Assembly: GCF_918741295.1 (NCBI RefSeq) | Contig: NZ_CAKKNB010000002.1 | Coordinates: 620,001 to 684,000 of the forward strand | DNA: 64,000 bases | Origin: Aquabacterium sp. CECT 9606 | GTDB lineage: Bacteria; Pseudomonadota; Gammaproteobacteria; Burkholderiales; Burkholderiaceae_C | Direction of reading: 5' to 3' | Part shown: one piece after another, positions 37,906 to 43,096 of the stretch | Layout: the number at the start of each line of letters is the position of its first letter | Numbering within the stretch: the first letter of the stretch is position 1 | Position numbers and translations under genes: made by a program | Notes under the pieces: model-generated | Database searches by the model: none | The model's input: the letters and a program-made list of their open reading frames with translations, nothing else | Told to the model about the DNA's origin: nothing

Positions 37906-39378
37906 TCAAGCGGGGATGTGCTCGGTGGCGTGGCTCAGATCGGCCAGCCATTGTTTGTAGGCAGCAGCACGGGCGTCGTCCTGCGCGCGTAGCAAGGCGG
38001 AGGGGTGCAGGGTGATGAGCACCGGCAGACCATCTTCGTCGCGGCGCAGCCACTGGCCATGCATTTTGGTGACGGACACGGGCCGGCCCATCAGCTGGCG
38101 TGCGGCGGTGGCGCCCAGCGCAATGATGGCCTTGGGCTTGACCTGGGCGATCTCGGCTTGCAGCCAGGGCAGGCAGGCATCGGCCTCGGCCTGCGAGGCG
38201 GTCTTGTGCATGCGGCGTTTGCCGCGCACCTCGTACTTGAAGTGCTTGACCGCGTTGGTGACGTAGAACTGCTGCCGGTCCCAGCCGAGCTCGGCCACCG
38301 CGCGGTTGAACAACTGGCCGGCCGGGCCGACGAAAGGGTGGCCTCGCAGGTCTTCCTGGTCGCCAGGTTGTTCGCCCACCACCATCAGCGCCGCGTGCGC
38401 CGGGCCTTCGCCGAAGACGGCCTGGGTGGCGTGTTCGCCGATGGGGCAGTCGCGGCAATGCTGGCAGGCGGCGCGCAGTTGCGGCAAGCTCATCGTGGCG
38501 CGCGACTCGGCCATGTGGTGTTCAGGGCCGGGCGCGGACACCTTCAGAGGCAGGGACTTGGGCAAGCGTTTGGCCATGTCTTGGGGGCCTTGTTCGATCA
38601 TGGCGCCGCTGCGTTGGTGGGCCGCCGCCACGAGCGGCGCGATCAGGGCGGCCTCGGGCAAATTGTGCCAATAGCGCCGGGGCATCTCGCGCTCCATCAT
38701 CTTCACCTTGAGCCGCGCCGGGTTGAAGATGTGCTCGTAATAGGTGAGCCACAGCGGTTCGCCGGCATCGGCCGGCGGCGCGTCGTCGCGATGCGCCCCA
38801 GGCTGGAAAGTGAGCCGGGTGCCATCCCACTGCACGCAGCGGTCGGGCGTGAGGATGGCCCAGCGCATGTTGGTGAAGCGGCGCTGAAAGAACGGCGCGG
38901 TGGCTTCGACGATGTGGTGGTCAGGCTCGAACCAGGCGATGTGCAATGGCGTGGGCCCCTGCCCATCGGCCACCGGGCGAAAGCGCACGAAGGCGGTCAT
39001 CTTGTGCATGTCGCGGCGCACGACGCGGGCCAGGTCTTCCAGCGCGCTACGGTCGGGGTCGAGGGTGTCGTGGCGCAACTGCGGCTGGTGCTGGAGGCGC
39101 CACAGCAGCCGGTACATCAAGGCGAAACGGCGGGGCTCGCGGTGCAGGATGGCGGTCTGGCACAAGGGCGGGAAGAAGGCAGGCACCTGGGGCGGCGGGC
39201 AGGGCGTGGTCTGAGCCGGCGCCGTGATGTCTTGCGCGAACAGGTCGCCGTCGCGGGCATAGGCCAGTGTCCAGGTCACGGCTTCGGGCGGGACTTGCGC
39301 TGCCAGCAGGTGGCGCGCGGCCTGCCTGAAACCAGCCAGGTCGGTGGGGCTGGCCAGCTCGGTGGTGCGGCTCAGCAT
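37906..39378 (-). CDS. udgX: DUF4130-UdgX fusion: uracil-DNA glycosylase family protein
   Basis: A 490-residue two-domain protein. Residues about 1-270 are a DUF4130 domain, a family found with radical SAM partners. Residues about 275-490 are a family-4-like uracil-DNA glycosylase of the UdgX type: Fe-S Cys in ACQHCRDCPIGEHA, GEQPGDQEDLRGHPFVGPAG, the loop KRRMH (387-391, His 391) and HPSALLR. In characterised UdgX the loop His forms a covalent bond with the uracil-site sugar, so the enzyme stays attached to DNA. The start overlaps the radical SAM stop by 7 bp (ATGCTGA). An upstream in-frame extension lacks homology. Confidence 0.9.
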   Translation of the reverse strand: MLSRTTELASPTDLAGFRQAARHLLAAQVPPEAVTWTLAYARDGDLFAQDITAPAQTTPCPPPQVPAFFPPLCQTAILHREPRRFALMYRLLWRLQHQPQLRHDTLDPDRSALEDLARVVRRDMHKMTAFVRFRPVADGQGPTPLHIAWFEPDHHIVEATAPFFQRRFTNMRWAILTPDRCVQWDGTRLTFQPGAHRDDAPPADAGEPLWLTYYEHIFNPARLKVKMMEREMPRRYWHNLPEAALIAPLVAAAHQRSGAMIEQGPQDMAKRLPKSLPLKVSAPGPEHHMAESRATMSLPQLRAACQHCRDCPIGEHATQAVFGEGPAHAALMVVGEQPGDQEDLRGHPFVGPAGQLFNRAVAELGWDRQQFYVTNAVKHFKYEVRGKRRMHKTASQAEADACLPWLQAEIAQVKPKAIIALGATAARQLMGRPVSVTKMHGQWLRRDEDGLPVLITLHPSALLRAQDDARAAAYKQWLADLSHATEHIPA

Positions 39379-40649
39379 GTCGCGGGGTTGAACAGGTCGG
39401 TTTGCAACGGGGGTTGGGTCCGCAGTTGCTGGGCCAGGTCGAGTGCATCGAGGCGGCGGCCGGGGTGGTGGTCGGCCACGATGACGAAGGGCAGCACTTT
39501 CTTGAGCGAAACGCGCAGCACCGCCAGATCGCTGCAACGCACTCGGCGTGCTCGGCGGGTCTGCAGCAGGCGCTCGATGGTCTTGACGCCCAGGCCGGGC
39601 ACGCGCAGCAGCATCTCGCGCGGCGCACGGTTCAGGTCGACAGGGAAGCGTTCGCGGTGTGCCAGCGCCCAGGCCAGTTTGGGATCGAGATCGAGCGACA
39701 GCATGCCGTCGCCTGGCGGCACGATCTCGTCGTGCGCGAAGCCGTAAAAGCGCATCAGCCAGTCGGCCTGGTAAAGGCGGTGTTCGCGCATCAGGGGCGG
39801 CGCTTGCGAAGGCAGGGCACGTGGCGCGTCGGGGATGGGGCTGAAGGCCGAGTAGTACACGCGGCGCAACTGGTATGAACCGTAGAGCGTGGCGCTGGTG
39901 CCCAGGATGGCCCGGTCGCTGGTGGCGTCAGCACCCACGATCATCTGGGTGCTTTGGCCGCCGGGCGCGAAGCGCGGTGGCAAGGCCACCAGCGGTGCCG
40001 AGCGTGGCCGCGAAATGATGGGCGAGGGCGCTGAAGCCTCCTTGGCCTCGTCGATGTGCACGCGCAGGCGCGCCATGGACCGGCGGATGGCGGCGCCATC
40101 TTTCTCAGGGGCCAGGGTTTGCAGGCCTTCGACCGTGGGCAGCTCGATGTTGATGCTCAGGCGGTCGGCGAACCGGCCCGCCTGGGCCAGCAATTCGGGG
40201 CTGGCATCGGGGATGGTCTTGAGGTGGATGTAGCCGCGGAAATCGTGCTCTTCGCGCAGCACGCGGGCCACCTGCACCACCTGCTCCATCGTGTAGTCAG
40301 GGTTGCGGATGATGCCTGAGCTGAGGAACAGGCCCTCGATGCAATTGCGGCGGTAAAAATCCAGTGTGAGCCGCACCACTTCGTCGACAGTGAAGCGGGC
40401 GCGCGGCACATTGCTGGTCACGCGGTTGACGCAGTACAGGCAGTCGTACTGGCAATAGTTGGTCAGCAGGATCTTGAGCAGCGAGATGCAGCGGCCATCG
40501 GGCGCGTAGCTGTGGCAAATGCCGGCGCCTTCGGTCGAGCCGATGCCGCGCCCGCTGACCGAATCACGCTGGCTGGTGCCGCTGGACGAACACGAGGCGT
40601 CGTACTTGGCGGCGTCGGCCAGGATGGTGAGTTTTTGCTGGATAATCAC
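39372..40649 (-). CDS. Radical SAM protein linked to UdgX (putative DNA modification/repair)
   Basis: A 425-residue radical SAM protein with CQYDCLYC (C66, C70, C73), an N-terminal KLTILADAAKYDASCSSSG block with extra Cys, GICHSYAPDGRCISLLKIL, and a C-terminal helix-hairpin-helix (RVPGLGVKTIERLLQTRR) that suggests DNA binding. The family is known by association with UdgX/DUF4130 proteins; its chemistry is unknown to me. The GTG start follows family homology and is overlapped by a LexA-type box. The best promoter puts +1 on this GTG, implying a leaderless mRNA. Confidence 0.88.
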   Translation of the reverse strand: MIIQQKLTILADAAKYDASCSSSGTSQRDSVSGRGIGSTEGAGICHSYAPDGRCISLLKILLTNYCQYDCLYCVNRVTSNVPRARFTVDEVVRLTLDFYRRNCIEGLFLSSGIIRNPDYTMEQVVQVARVLREEHDFRGYIHLKTIPDASPELLAQAGRFADRLSINIELPTVEGLQTLAPEKDGAAIRRSMARLRVHIDEAKEASAPSPIISRPRSAPLVALPPRFAPGGQSTQMIVGADATSDRAILGTSATLYGSYQLRRVYYSAFSPIPDAPRALPSQAPPLMREHRLYQADWLMRFYGFAHDEIVPPGDGMLSLDLDPKLAWALAHRERFPVDLNRAPREMLLRVPGLGVKTIERLLQTRRARRVRCSDLAVLRVSLKKVLPFVIVADHHPGRRLDALDLAQQLRTQPPLQTDLFNPATC

Positions 40650-40684
40650 TGTATAAATATACAGTCACCAAGCCGCCTCTGCAA
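40649..40684 (-). promoter_or_regulatory. SOS promoter: LexA box over -10 and start codon
   Basis: On the minus strand TTGCAG (40684-40679), a 17-bp spacer and TATATT (40661-40656) form a promoter with predicted +1 at 40649, the first base of the GTG start. CTGTATATTTATACAG (40664-40649) is a perfect CTGT-N8-ACAG LexA-type box over the -10. Induction by DNA damage is strongly suggested. Confidence 0.85.
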
Positions 40685-40708
40685 GTTTGGGCATCAGGCC
40701 CATCGCTG

Positions 40709-43096
40709 TCAGGGCCTGGCAGGCTCCTGGGGCCGCTCTGGAAAGGGTGGCGGACTGATGGCCGGCCGGTTGTCCGACGAGCGTCCGAGCCTGTTCACCA
40801 GTTGGTCCAATTCGTCCGAGGTCTTGGGGGCGTCCGTGTCGGCCTCGCCCTCGTCCATGGCGGGGTTGCGCGGCTGCTCGCCGGCCGGATCGGCCGTGAT
40901 CGGGTTGCCTTCCGAATCCAGCAGTGGCGCGCTTTCATCGACCTCGTCGTTGGTGGGGCTCCATTCACCGTTCCCGGTCACCGGAGGGCGCCTTGGGCTG
41001 GGGAACGAGGCCTGGACATCCATCAGTTTTTGCTTGAAAGCGGTGCGCAAGAAGTCGCCCACCAGCAGCAAGGCACTGTGCCCACCCTGGCCCCAATAAC
41101 TGCCGCGCATGGTGACGTGCTGGTCGTTGAAACCCACCCAGGCGCCGGTCACCAGCTGCGGGTGCATCACCATGAACCAGCCATCGGTGTTGTTCTGCGT
41201 GGTGCCGGTCTTGCCGGCCAGATCCCCTTCGGGCACAAAGCGCGTGCGCAGCATGGTGCCGGTGCCGTAGGTGACCACGCCGCGCATCATGTCGATCAGG
41301 TTGTTGACGGTGTCCACGCTCAGGGCACGGTCCACTTTGTTGGGGCCGAAGACCGCCACCTCCTTGCCCTGCTTGTCGGTGATGCGTTCGACGAAGTAGG
41401 GCTGCTTGTGCTCGCCACCGCTGGCGATGGTGGCATACACCGTGGCCATCTCCAGCAGGGTGACGGGGCTGGTGCCCAGGGCCATCGAGGGCACGGGGTC
41501 CAACTTGCTGTCGGTGATGCCCATGGTCTTGGCCAGGGCGGTGATGCGCGGCAGGCCGGCGTCCTGCATCACCTGCGTGGTGATGGTGTTCTTGGACAAG
41601 ACCAGGCCTTGCCACATGGTCATGGACTCGCCCGTGCTGCCCGACATGTCGGTGGGTCGCCAGACCTTGCCATTGCCCAGGCGAACTTCAATGGGCGTGT
41701 CCACGTAGGTGCGGGTGGGCAGGATGCCGGCCTCCAGGGCGGCCGCATACACGATGGGCTTGAAGGTGGAGCCCGGCTGGCGCGCGGCCTGGCCCACGTG
41801 GTCGAACTGCTCATCGCCAAAGTCGCGGCTGCCCACCCAGGCCTTGATCGCGCCGCTGCGCGGGTCCATGGCCACGAAGCCGGCTTCAAGGCGGGTCTTG
41901 TCGGCACGCACCTTGGCCATCAACTCGGCATCGCCCATCACGGTCTTCAAGGCCTGGGCCGGGGGCTGGCCCGATTTGACCAGCTTGCGGTAGTCGGGCG
42001 TTCGGCGCGCGGCCTCGGCCAGCAGCTTGGGGTGTTGGCGCCAGAAGTGCTCAAAGGCCTTGGCCTTGCTGGCTTGCGCGTAACTGTCCAGCGAGCGGGA
42101 GACGACCGGCATCGCTGCCGCGCTCCACTCCACGTCGGCCACATGCTGCAGGGATTCAGTTTGGCGCTCCACGGCTTTCACGGCGGCTTCCTGCAGGCGC
42201 GAATCGAGCGTGGTGTGGATGATCAGCCCTTCGCGCGACAGGTCGCGGTCGTTCTGGTCGGCCCAATCGTCCAGCCACCGGCGCACCTGGGCGGCGAAGT
42301 GCGGCGCCAGGTCCAGGTCCACCGCCTGGTGGGTGAGGCTGACTTGAAGGTCTTCCTGCCTGGCCGCGTCGTGATCTGCTTGTGACAGCACGCCCCGCTT
42401 GAGCATCTGCGCCAGCACCAGGTTGCGCCGGGCCTTGGCGCGCTGAGGGTGCAGAACCGGGTTGTAGTAGTTGGTGCCTTTCAGCATGCCGACCAGCGTG
42501 GCACTTTCGGCCGCGTCCAGCTCGATGGCGGGCTTGTCGAAATAGGTGTGGGCGGCGGCCTCGATGCCCACGGCGTTGTACAAAAAAGGCACCGTGTTGA
42601 GGTAGGCCTCCAGGATCTGGTCCTTGGTGTAGATGCGCTCGATGCGCAGCGCGGTGACGATTTCCTTGACCTTGCGGCCCAAGTTGCGCGATCGGCCAAT
42701 GTCTTCCGGGAAAAGATTGCGCACCAGTTGCTGCGTGAGGGTGGAGCCGCCTTCCATGCGGCCGGTGGCCGTGCGAAAAATGGCCTTGATGCTGCGCAGC
42801 CAGTCCACGCCGTGGTGTTCGCGGAAGCGGTGGTCCTCGGTGGCGATCAGGGCTTGCGTCACATAGGGCGAGACCTGGGCCAGCGTCACGGGCTGCAGCC
42901 TTTGCTCCTGGAAGCGCCCGATGGTCTTGCCATCGGCCGACAGGATCACGCTGGGTTGCGGCACCTGGGTGGTTTTGAGTTCGGTGACGGCGGGCGCCTG
43001 CGTGACCTGGTAGCCCACGAACACGGCCGCCGCGACGGCCAGGGCCGTGGTGGCCAACATCAGCCAGATCAGGGTCTGGCGCAGTGGTGAATTCAT
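40709..43096 (-). CDS. Class A penicillin-binding protein (transglycosylase/transpeptidase)
   Basis: A 795-residue bifunctional PBP. One N-terminal membrane helix (about 5-27) is followed by a GT51 transglycosylase (EDHRFREHHGVDW, GGSTLTQQLVRNLF) and a transpeptidase with S443-x-x-K in QPGSTFKP, SKN (LSKNTITTQ) and KTGTT. The C-terminal tail is acidic and Pro-rich, about 90 residues. It polymerises and cross-links peptidoglycan. The ATG at 43096 places the helix at the N-terminus; an upstream TTG is less likely. It is transcribed toward the radical SAM gene, with 59 bp between. Confidence 0.92.
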   Translation of the reverse strand: MNSPLRQTLIWLMLATTALAVAAAVFVGYQVTQAPAVTELKTTQVPQPSVILSADGKTIGRFQEQRLQPVTLAQVSPYVTQALIATEDHRFREHHGVDWLRSIKAIFRTATGRMEGGSTLTQQLVRNLFPEDIGRSRNLGRKVKEIVTALRIERIYTKDQILEAYLNTVPFLYNAVGIEAAAHTYFDKPAIELDAAESATLVGMLKGTNYYNPVLHPQRAKARRNLVLAQMLKRGVLSQADHDAARQEDLQVSLTHQAVDLDLAPHFAAQVRRWLDDWADQNDRDLSREGLIIHTTLDSRLQEAAVKAVERQTESLQHVADVEWSAAAMPVVSRSLDSYAQASKAKAFEHFWRQHPKLLAEAARRTPDYRKLVKSGQPPAQALKTVMGDAELMAKVRADKTRLEAGFVAMDPRSGAIKAWVGSRDFGDEQFDHVGQAARQPGSTFKPIVYAAALEAGILPTRTYVDTPIEVRLGNGKVWRPTDMSGSTGESMTMWQGLVLSKNTITTQVMQDAGLPRITALAKTMGITDSKLDPVPSMALGTSPVTLLEMATVYATIASGGEHKQPYFVERITDKQGKEVAVFGPNKVDRALSVDTVNNLIDMMRGVVTYGTGTMLRTRFVPEGDLAGKTGTTQNNTDGWFMVMHPQLVTGAWVGFNDQHVTMRGSYWGQGGHSALLLVGDFLRTAFKQKLMDVQASFPSPRRPPVTGNGEWSPTNDEVDESAPLLDSEGNPITADPAGEQPRNPAMDEGEADTDAPKTSDELDQLVNRLGRSSDNRPAISPPPFPERPQEPARP

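Follow-up and report, generated by a model that had tools for sequence, protein, structure and literature searches.

Three protein families, TIGR03916, TIGR03915 and TIGR03914, form a trio in NCBIfam whose model names say 'putative' and for which no tested function was found; the first of them, a radical S-adenosylmethionine (SAM) family, is taken here to be COG4277. A COG1573-COG4277 'base excision repair' operon is placed in inferred LexA networks of Bacteroidetes in the excerpted text of PMC8565304, where SOS control of such a system is credited to earlier reports from Verrucomicrobia and Alphaproteobacteria. Excerpts of other papers infer LexA control of CAC3343-CAC3344 in Clostridium acetobutylicum (PMC3828012), record up-regulation of a family member on desiccation in Acinetobacter (PMC13130816), and call DUF4130-associated proteins SplB-like (PMC3765255); the Streptomyces LexA regulon, as excerpted from PMC9380542, lists a radical SAM gene whose family could not be told and which was not used. 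The pairing of radical SAM and DUF4130 proteins and its SOS control are already in print. The physiological role of UdgX, in contrast to its chemistry, is described as largely unknown in the excerpted part of PMC10359453. The present work concerns a two-gene operon in a 64-kb stretch of DNA from Aquabacterium sp. CECT 9606 (contig NZ_CAKKNB010000002.1, positions 620,001 to 684,000; this whole stretch is called the window), which encodes a radical SAM protein and a fusion of DUF4130 with UdgX, all three NCBIfam models being matched over their cut-offs. The operon resembles COG1573-COG4277 in having two genes, a protein of the uracil-DNA glycosylase (UDG) family and a place in an inferred LexA network. 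However, COG1573-COG4277 was treated as a uracil-DNA glycosylase system, 'DUF4130' is absent from the text of PMC8565304, and that paper is not one of those listed for 'UdgX'. For the NCBIfam trio, the comparison presented here shows that UdgX is optional and that the first two members occur as a pair.

The locus comprises the following features, in coordinates of the window:
39372..40649, minus strand: radical SAM gene (TIGR03916), GTG start at 40649 and stop at 39372, 425 amino acids
37906..39378, minus strand: DUF4130-UdgX fusion gene, ATG start at 39378 and stop at 37906, 490 amino acids
38650..39378, minus strand: DUF4130/TIGR03915 domain, profile match at residues 11-243
37930..38646, minus strand: UdgX domain (TIGR03914), residues 245-483, with GEQPG, KRRMH, HPSALLR and cluster-type cysteines
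40649..40664, no strand: LexA-type box CTGTATATTTATACAG, a perfect palindrome that adjoins the GTG start codon of the radical SAM gene
40650..40708, minus strand: intergenic promoter region of 59 bp between a penicillin-binding-protein gene and the operon

The two genes overlap by 7 bp (39372-39378), and the genes, their frames and this overlap agree with an earlier note on this DNA.

Co-occurrence of the radical SAM, DUF4130 and UdgX components

TIGR03916 was searched in three overlapping sets, namely the genus (42 genomes, 8 over the cut-off), the order (300 genomes, 18) and the phylum, read as Pseudomonadota from named kin (397 genomes, 103). Radical SAM matches were present at 123 loci, and omission of six fragments (L020, L022, L023, L026, L027, L045) gave a set of 117; five weak matches (L024, L025, L046-L048) gave no tblastn hit. 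Within the phylum set, radical SAM, DUF4130 and UdgX exceeded their cut-offs in 103, 106 and 92 genomes, respectively. The expectation that the pair is conserved together was borne out, as every one of the 103 radical SAM genomes also had DUF4130 and 103 of the 106 DUF4130 genomes had the radical SAM gene, leaving three with DUF4130 only. DUF4130 follows the radical SAM gene in 115 of the 117 loci, and in the remaining two it is found at a distance of about 3 kb. Radical SAM and UdgX were found together in 76 genomes, with 27 having radical SAM only and 16 UdgX only. Among the control genomes, the laboratory strain of Caulobacter vibrioides gave matches to all three families at E up to 0.001.

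The missing UdgX was sought in 36 whole genomes, comprising 33 without an intact UdgX at the fetched locus together with G363, G522 and G529, in which the fusion is displaced by 0.6 to 3 kb. It exceeded the cut-off in four, these three and G200, whose fetched stretch had ended early, and in none of the other 32, of which 19 gave a weaker match ranging from fragments to family-4-like uracil-DNA glycosylases. Among 31 loci with a short DUF4130 open reading frame (ORF) and no UdgX domain, 19 keep the perfect box of their lineage, and a further five of the 31, belonging to family f54, have that box with one mismatch. Mapped on the radical SAM tree, which was built by a quick method from 109 of the 117 loci and carries a long-branch warning, presence of the fusion requires 10 changes of state, 5 of which are imposed by branches with good support; shuffled labels require 27.1 on average. 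Loci of Bacteroides, Pusillibacter and Acinetobacter have a short DUF4130 gene as well. Since UdgX is below its cut-off or absent in 27 of 103 genomes and the pair is constant, these distributions read as a core of radical SAM and DUF4130 with UdgX as an accessory.

One idea of the earlier note was that the radical SAM protein modifies or resolves the covalent protein-DNA product of UdgX. Both partners occur in one operon here and are over their cut-offs together in 76 of 397 genomes, and 76 of 79 fusions retain the histidine of the cross-link. However, UdgX is below cut-off or absent in 27 of the 103 radical SAM genomes and DUF4130 in none of them, the radical SAM gene is not over its cut-off in 16 of the 92 genomes with UdgX, 19 of the 31 UdgX-less loci retain a perfect box, and the fusion state changes 10 times on the tree; the excerpt of PMC10359453 moreover proposes RecA-dependent pathways or proteases instead. 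Because UdgX comes and goes, resolving UdgX-DNA cross-links is unlikely as the core function, and we consider this explanation improbable. The other idea of the same note, repair of a non-uracil lesion, fits better. The same counts bear on the suggestion that abasic-site shielding by UdgX is the main job of the operon, with radical SAM and DUF4130 merely assisting. UdgX is the component whose chemistry is known and whose signature is conserved, but it is also the part missing from 27 of 103 genomes in which the other two stay paired, so that this suggestion has only a slim chance of being right.

LexA-type boxes upstream of the pair

The upstream scan covered -150 to +15 around the chosen start of the 117 loci, with those outside the class read as Alphaproteobacteria and the class of the window as beta/gamma. 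Perfect GAACN7GAAC or GTTCN7GTTC sites were detected in 66 of 67 outside-class loci, compared with 11 of 5878 control windows taken at those loci, and perfect CTGTN8ACAG sites in 33 of 50 own-class loci, compared with 19 of 4279. The own-class loci divide into those of the order of the window (19 of 27; control 0 of 1947) and the remainder (14 of 23; control 19 of 2332); the 19 control matches come from seven further sites, four of which are one and the same site inside the f54 radical SAM ORF. No perfect box of the other group's type was present in either group. Counted by family, 9 of 10 outside the class and 5 of 11 within it include a perfect box, under two different motifs. SOS control of the radical SAM-DUF4130 operon is thus supported by motif evidence, since lineage-type boxes precede most loci and controls are near zero, in agreement with the anticipated conservation of the LexA box.

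A second set consisted of named loci, the best 80 of 585 confirmed relatives, which leans to close kin and in which classes were assigned by record title; perfect boxes were found there in 45 of 52 alpha loci and in 11 of 22 beta/gamma loci outside Xanthomonadaceae, and the named loci without one include Rhodanobacter, Luteibacter and Steroidobacter. In the scanned set, the perfect box is lacking in families f4, f9, f25, f44, f51, f56 and f130 and at the own-genus locus L021, and five f54 loci have the one-mismatch version mentioned above. The sites of family f25 are GTACGAACGTAC, GAACGAACGTAC and GAACGATCGTAC, which we take to be close to a motif of some Betaproteobacteria. By eye, the Bacillota plasmid L248 has two GAACN4GTTC sites upstream.

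In the window, the note's perfect CTGT-N8-ACAG box on the promoter was recovered at 40649-40664, and CTGTATATTTATACAG is the sole perfect match in the 64 kb. The box and the GTG start codon share one base, the last of the box and the first of the codon. As an in-frame stop codon ends 15 bases before this GTG, 40649 is the sole usual start codon there. A TATATT hexamer overlaps the box, and a weak TTGCAG stands 17 bp upstream. Counting 14 one-mismatch sites, the window holds 15 matches against 22.4 expected from shuffles, and these 14 were rejected as further SOS sites because they leave the total below that of the shuffles. The pattern on its own proves little, because the whole genome has 37 perfect sites and 26 for the reversed control pattern. 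The weight for the box is carried by its conservation, its start-codon position and the AT-rich core; a 165-bp upstream window would be expected to hold about 0.0008 perfect sites at the control rate. The operon is preceded on the same strand by the penicillin-binding-protein gene, which encodes transglycosylase and transpeptidase domains and has its stop codon at 40709; an alpha/beta hydrolase gene follows the operon.

Besides the site in the window, 14 of the 37 perfect sites of this genome were fetched in 13 stretches, and genes were identified at five. Perfect boxes precede lexA (L003), imuA (L004) and a radical SAM gene of the PA0069 family (NF033668; L002, near 749127), where the LexA-type box stands 4 bp ahead of the start codon; the operon's own box is of the AT-rich type. 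The other two are integron integrase genes (L006 and L007), each with a perfect box 35 bp upstream, the L006 copy being truncated to 217 amino acids. No family was matched by the ORFs found at L001 or at the two AT-rich sites of L005.

The box ends 8 bp or less before the start in 50 of the 99 box-bearing loci, and in 3 of these a Shine-Dalgarno-like stretch is present. At most, this hints at leaderless translation of the operon mRNA, because the box itself occupies the Shine-Dalgarno space.

A different palindrome, GTCTCAN5TGAGAC, stands just upstream of the radical SAM gene in Xanthomonadaceae in place of CTGTN8ACAG; the loci considered for this palindrome, there and at other sites, are L095, L096, L101, L189, L193, L197, L199, L201, L205, L252-L260 and L287-L305. 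Its core, TCTCAN5TGAGA, is present in 6 of 6 named Xanthomonadaceae loci, and in three further genomes of the family the full palindrome is perfect in two and has one mismatch in one. Each of these three genomes has 3 perfect sites and none for the reversed control; with one mismatch, the sites number 12 and 16 in two of them, again with a control of 0. The palindrome is also found at uvrA (Pfam, L252), at the gene of a DEAD-box helicase that matches HRQ1 weakly (L257), at a gene judged by eye to be ImuA-like (L291) and at one for a UmuD-like S24 peptidase (L298), but several sites fall inside ORFs. The palindrome, which is presumably unlike the LexA motifs of Xanthomonas, may be a DNA-damage box.

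The encoded proteins

The radical SAM protein matches TIGR03916 (rSAM_link_UDG) with 551.2 bits against a cut-off of 343.5 in the NCBIfam profile search. Its CX3CX2C motif, C66-X3-C70-X2-C73, is that of a SAM-cleaving cluster, and C20, C45, C54, C66, C70 and C73 are invariant in 201 of 201 radical SAM proteins, a set that includes near relatives (198 by strict pattern and 3 by eye, which differ only in residues beside the cysteines); 98 of them have exactly six cysteines. The three further invariant cysteines, C20, C45 and C54, suggest a second iron-sulfur cluster. Three N-terminal cysteines besides CX3CX2C are the layout of MiaB and RimO, and a methylthiotransferase-like or sulfur-inserting enzyme with an auxiliary cluster, whose target would be either nucleic acid or a repair protein and which would reverse no lesion, can be envisaged on that account. 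However, neither the methylthiotransferase N-terminal domain nor TRAM matched the protein (NCBIfam, E up to 0.01; Pfam, E up to 0.1), and its best weak relatives by family model are ThiH and HydE, which makes a sulfur-inserting role unlikely.

Spore photoproduct lyase (SplB) likewise combines a radical SAM core with a DNA-repair setting, but its family model TIGR04070 had no match to the protein (NCBIfam, E up to 0.01), which is further set apart by its three extra invariant cysteines. The C-terminal helix-hairpin-helix claimed in the earlier note is plausible but weak. A match does occur at the expected end, with Pfam HHH_5 at residues 322-363 scoring 15 bits against a cut-off of 27 and with positions 321-367 of the family-alignment profile matching ComEA at E 0.014 in a search of solved structures; in that sequence search, the protein gave just generic radical SAM and helix-hairpin-helix matches. 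Close kinship with the PA0069 family protein of the same genome was rejected, the similarity being confined to the surroundings of the cluster motif. PADLOC gave no defence link for the pair, and PHROGs gave a weak radical SAM match together with a tail-terminator match at chance level.

The fusion scores 212.4 bits with TIGR03915 (cut-off 112.25) and 279.9 bits with TIGR03914 (cut-off 189.95), and its Pfam domains are DUF4130 and UDG. The DUF4130 part, in which 14 columns are invariant across 35 sequences, including H125, R132, R222 and E242, had no credible relative among solved structures in sequence searches. The UdgX family profile, on the other hand, matched solved UdgX with E 2.3e-74. 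As defined in the excerpt of PMC10359453, UdgX has motif A GEQPG with Q53, an R-loop with R107 and H109, and motif B HPS(S/A)(L/V)(L/V)R; the fusion has all three, as GEQPG, KRRMH and HPSALLR. The UdgX chains of Mycobacterium smegmatis (PDB 6ail and 6ajo) are alike in GEQPG, KRRxH and an HPSxLLR-type motif B. However, those chains, of 229 and 209 residues, contain nothing but the UdgX domain, whereas in the window the domain is joined to DUF4130 and encoded in an operon with an SOS box.

Of the 79 fusions, defined as DUF4130 ORFs of more than 430 amino acids, 76 retain R107 and H109 (numbered as in M. smegmatis, PMC10359453). As the three exceptions are cut by the end of the stretch (L032), out of frame at that point (L078) or degenerate (L121), selection seems to preserve the histidine that forms the cross-link in every UdgX domain that is whole. 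The KRRMH cross-linking loop of the earlier note is accordingly present, and the UdgX-type site is backed by sequence. Cysteines for a putative 4Fe-4S cluster are present in the UdgX domain of the window (C307, C310 and C401) and absent together in 7 of the 79 fusions (L106, L112, L114, L115, L122, L125 and L133), which have an intact cross-linking loop. L121 (genome G644, family f54) is a fusion with a degenerate UdgX, in which motif A and the loop are lost; 11 other examined members of f54 have no UdgX domain, and L121 is perhaps a UdgX loss in progress. Proteins of the SRAP/HMCES group are SOS-linked and cross-link to abasic sites, by another chemistry and in another family than UdgX. They offer an analogy for the UdgX domain, which differs in creating its own abasic site from uracil.

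Relatives of the radical SAM protein were also found in 158 plasmid records, most of them alphaproteobacterial (e.g., Phaeobacter and Paracoccus), with others in Bacteroides, Pusillibacter and Gemmatirosa. The viral collection gave 2 relatives and the phage collection ten matched records, two of which were examined. One, L250 (MT835514, unannotated and deposited as a phage), has, by eye, bacterial-type genes around the radical SAM-DUF4130 pair and a spore photoproduct lyase-like ORF about 2.6 kb from it, and the other, an Acinetobacter record, has glyS/glyQ near the pair. With such surroundings, phage carriage of the pair is not claimed.

Proposed function of the operon

The operon may be an SOS-induced DNA-lesion unit of radical SAM and DUF4130 in which UdgX is an optional self-cross-linking uracil trap, a proposal that we judge about equally likely to be right or wrong. 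LexA would repress the operon and, after damage, would be cleaved, so that a single transcript, perhaps leaderless, would give both proteins. The radical SAM enzyme would probably hold two iron-sulfur clusters, one cleaving SAM and the other on the three N-terminal cysteines. DUF4130 would be its constant partner or lesion reader and, together with the helix-hairpin-helix, would place the enzyme on DNA, where the 5'-deoxyadenosyl radical would then alter the lesion chemically. At the same sites, UdgX would excise uracil and bond covalently to the abasic sugar, acting as an optional uracil trap and abasic-site shield. DNA is most likely the substrate of the radical SAM enzyme, because of the LexA-type control, the weak helix-hairpin-helix and the uracil-DNA partner. 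A more specific version, which we hold tentatively and think somewhat doubtful, is that of an unrecognised SOS core, in which a two-cluster radical enzyme reverses or unhooks a DNA lesion, is kept under the SOS box of each lineage, and has had a uracil trap repeatedly fused to it and lost.

Several points weigh against this proposal. Three genomes have DUF4130 and no radical SAM gene over the cut-off, although in one of them (G507) DUF4130 lies near the start of a contig. The loci are related, so that counts such as 66 of 67 and 33 of 50 overstate independent events, and no perfect box was found in 17 of 50 own-class loci or in 18 of the 74 named loci outside Xanthomonadaceae. The promoter scan accepted no site, and hence no consensus promoter, at the operon. 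The helix-hairpin-helix match is under the Pfam cut-off, the extra cysteines could form a zinc site or have another use instead of holding a second cluster, and the radical substrate is inferred from context.

The same context also allows DNA modification instead of repair, with the radical SAM enzyme adding a base modification under stress and UdgX/DUF4130 recognising altered thymine or uracil. The family is named 'putative DNA modification/repair', and a figure legend in the excerpted part of PMC3765255 mentions enzymes that might modify thymines. However, the two-gene operon of the window contains no further candidate modification enzyme, and LexA-type control is generally more usual for repair or tolerance genes; DNA modification is therefore given a small chance. 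The SOS-induced lesion unit is retained as the preferred explanation. Of the interpretation in the earlier note, the SOS boxes, the conservation of the pair and, by its signature, the cross-linking site have stood, and conjugate resolution as the core function has not.

The literature search, outside which lay supplements and subscription papers, found no paper with both 'UdgX' and 'radical SAM'; two papers with 'UdgX' and 'SOS' were listed, with titles on dUTPases and a lysine decarboxylase. It found in print neither a link of the pair to a cross-linking UdgX, nor the dispensable nature of UdgX, nor the six-cysteine pattern. Nor did any paper found there assign a chemistry to the radical SAM family, though it is over the cut-off in 103 of 397 genomes of the phylum. 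The comparison makes the open functional question of this known family easier to test. The split into core and accessory changes the experiment, in that the lesion would be sought with a UdgX-free version of the operon, and UdgX itself gains a damage-linked setting.

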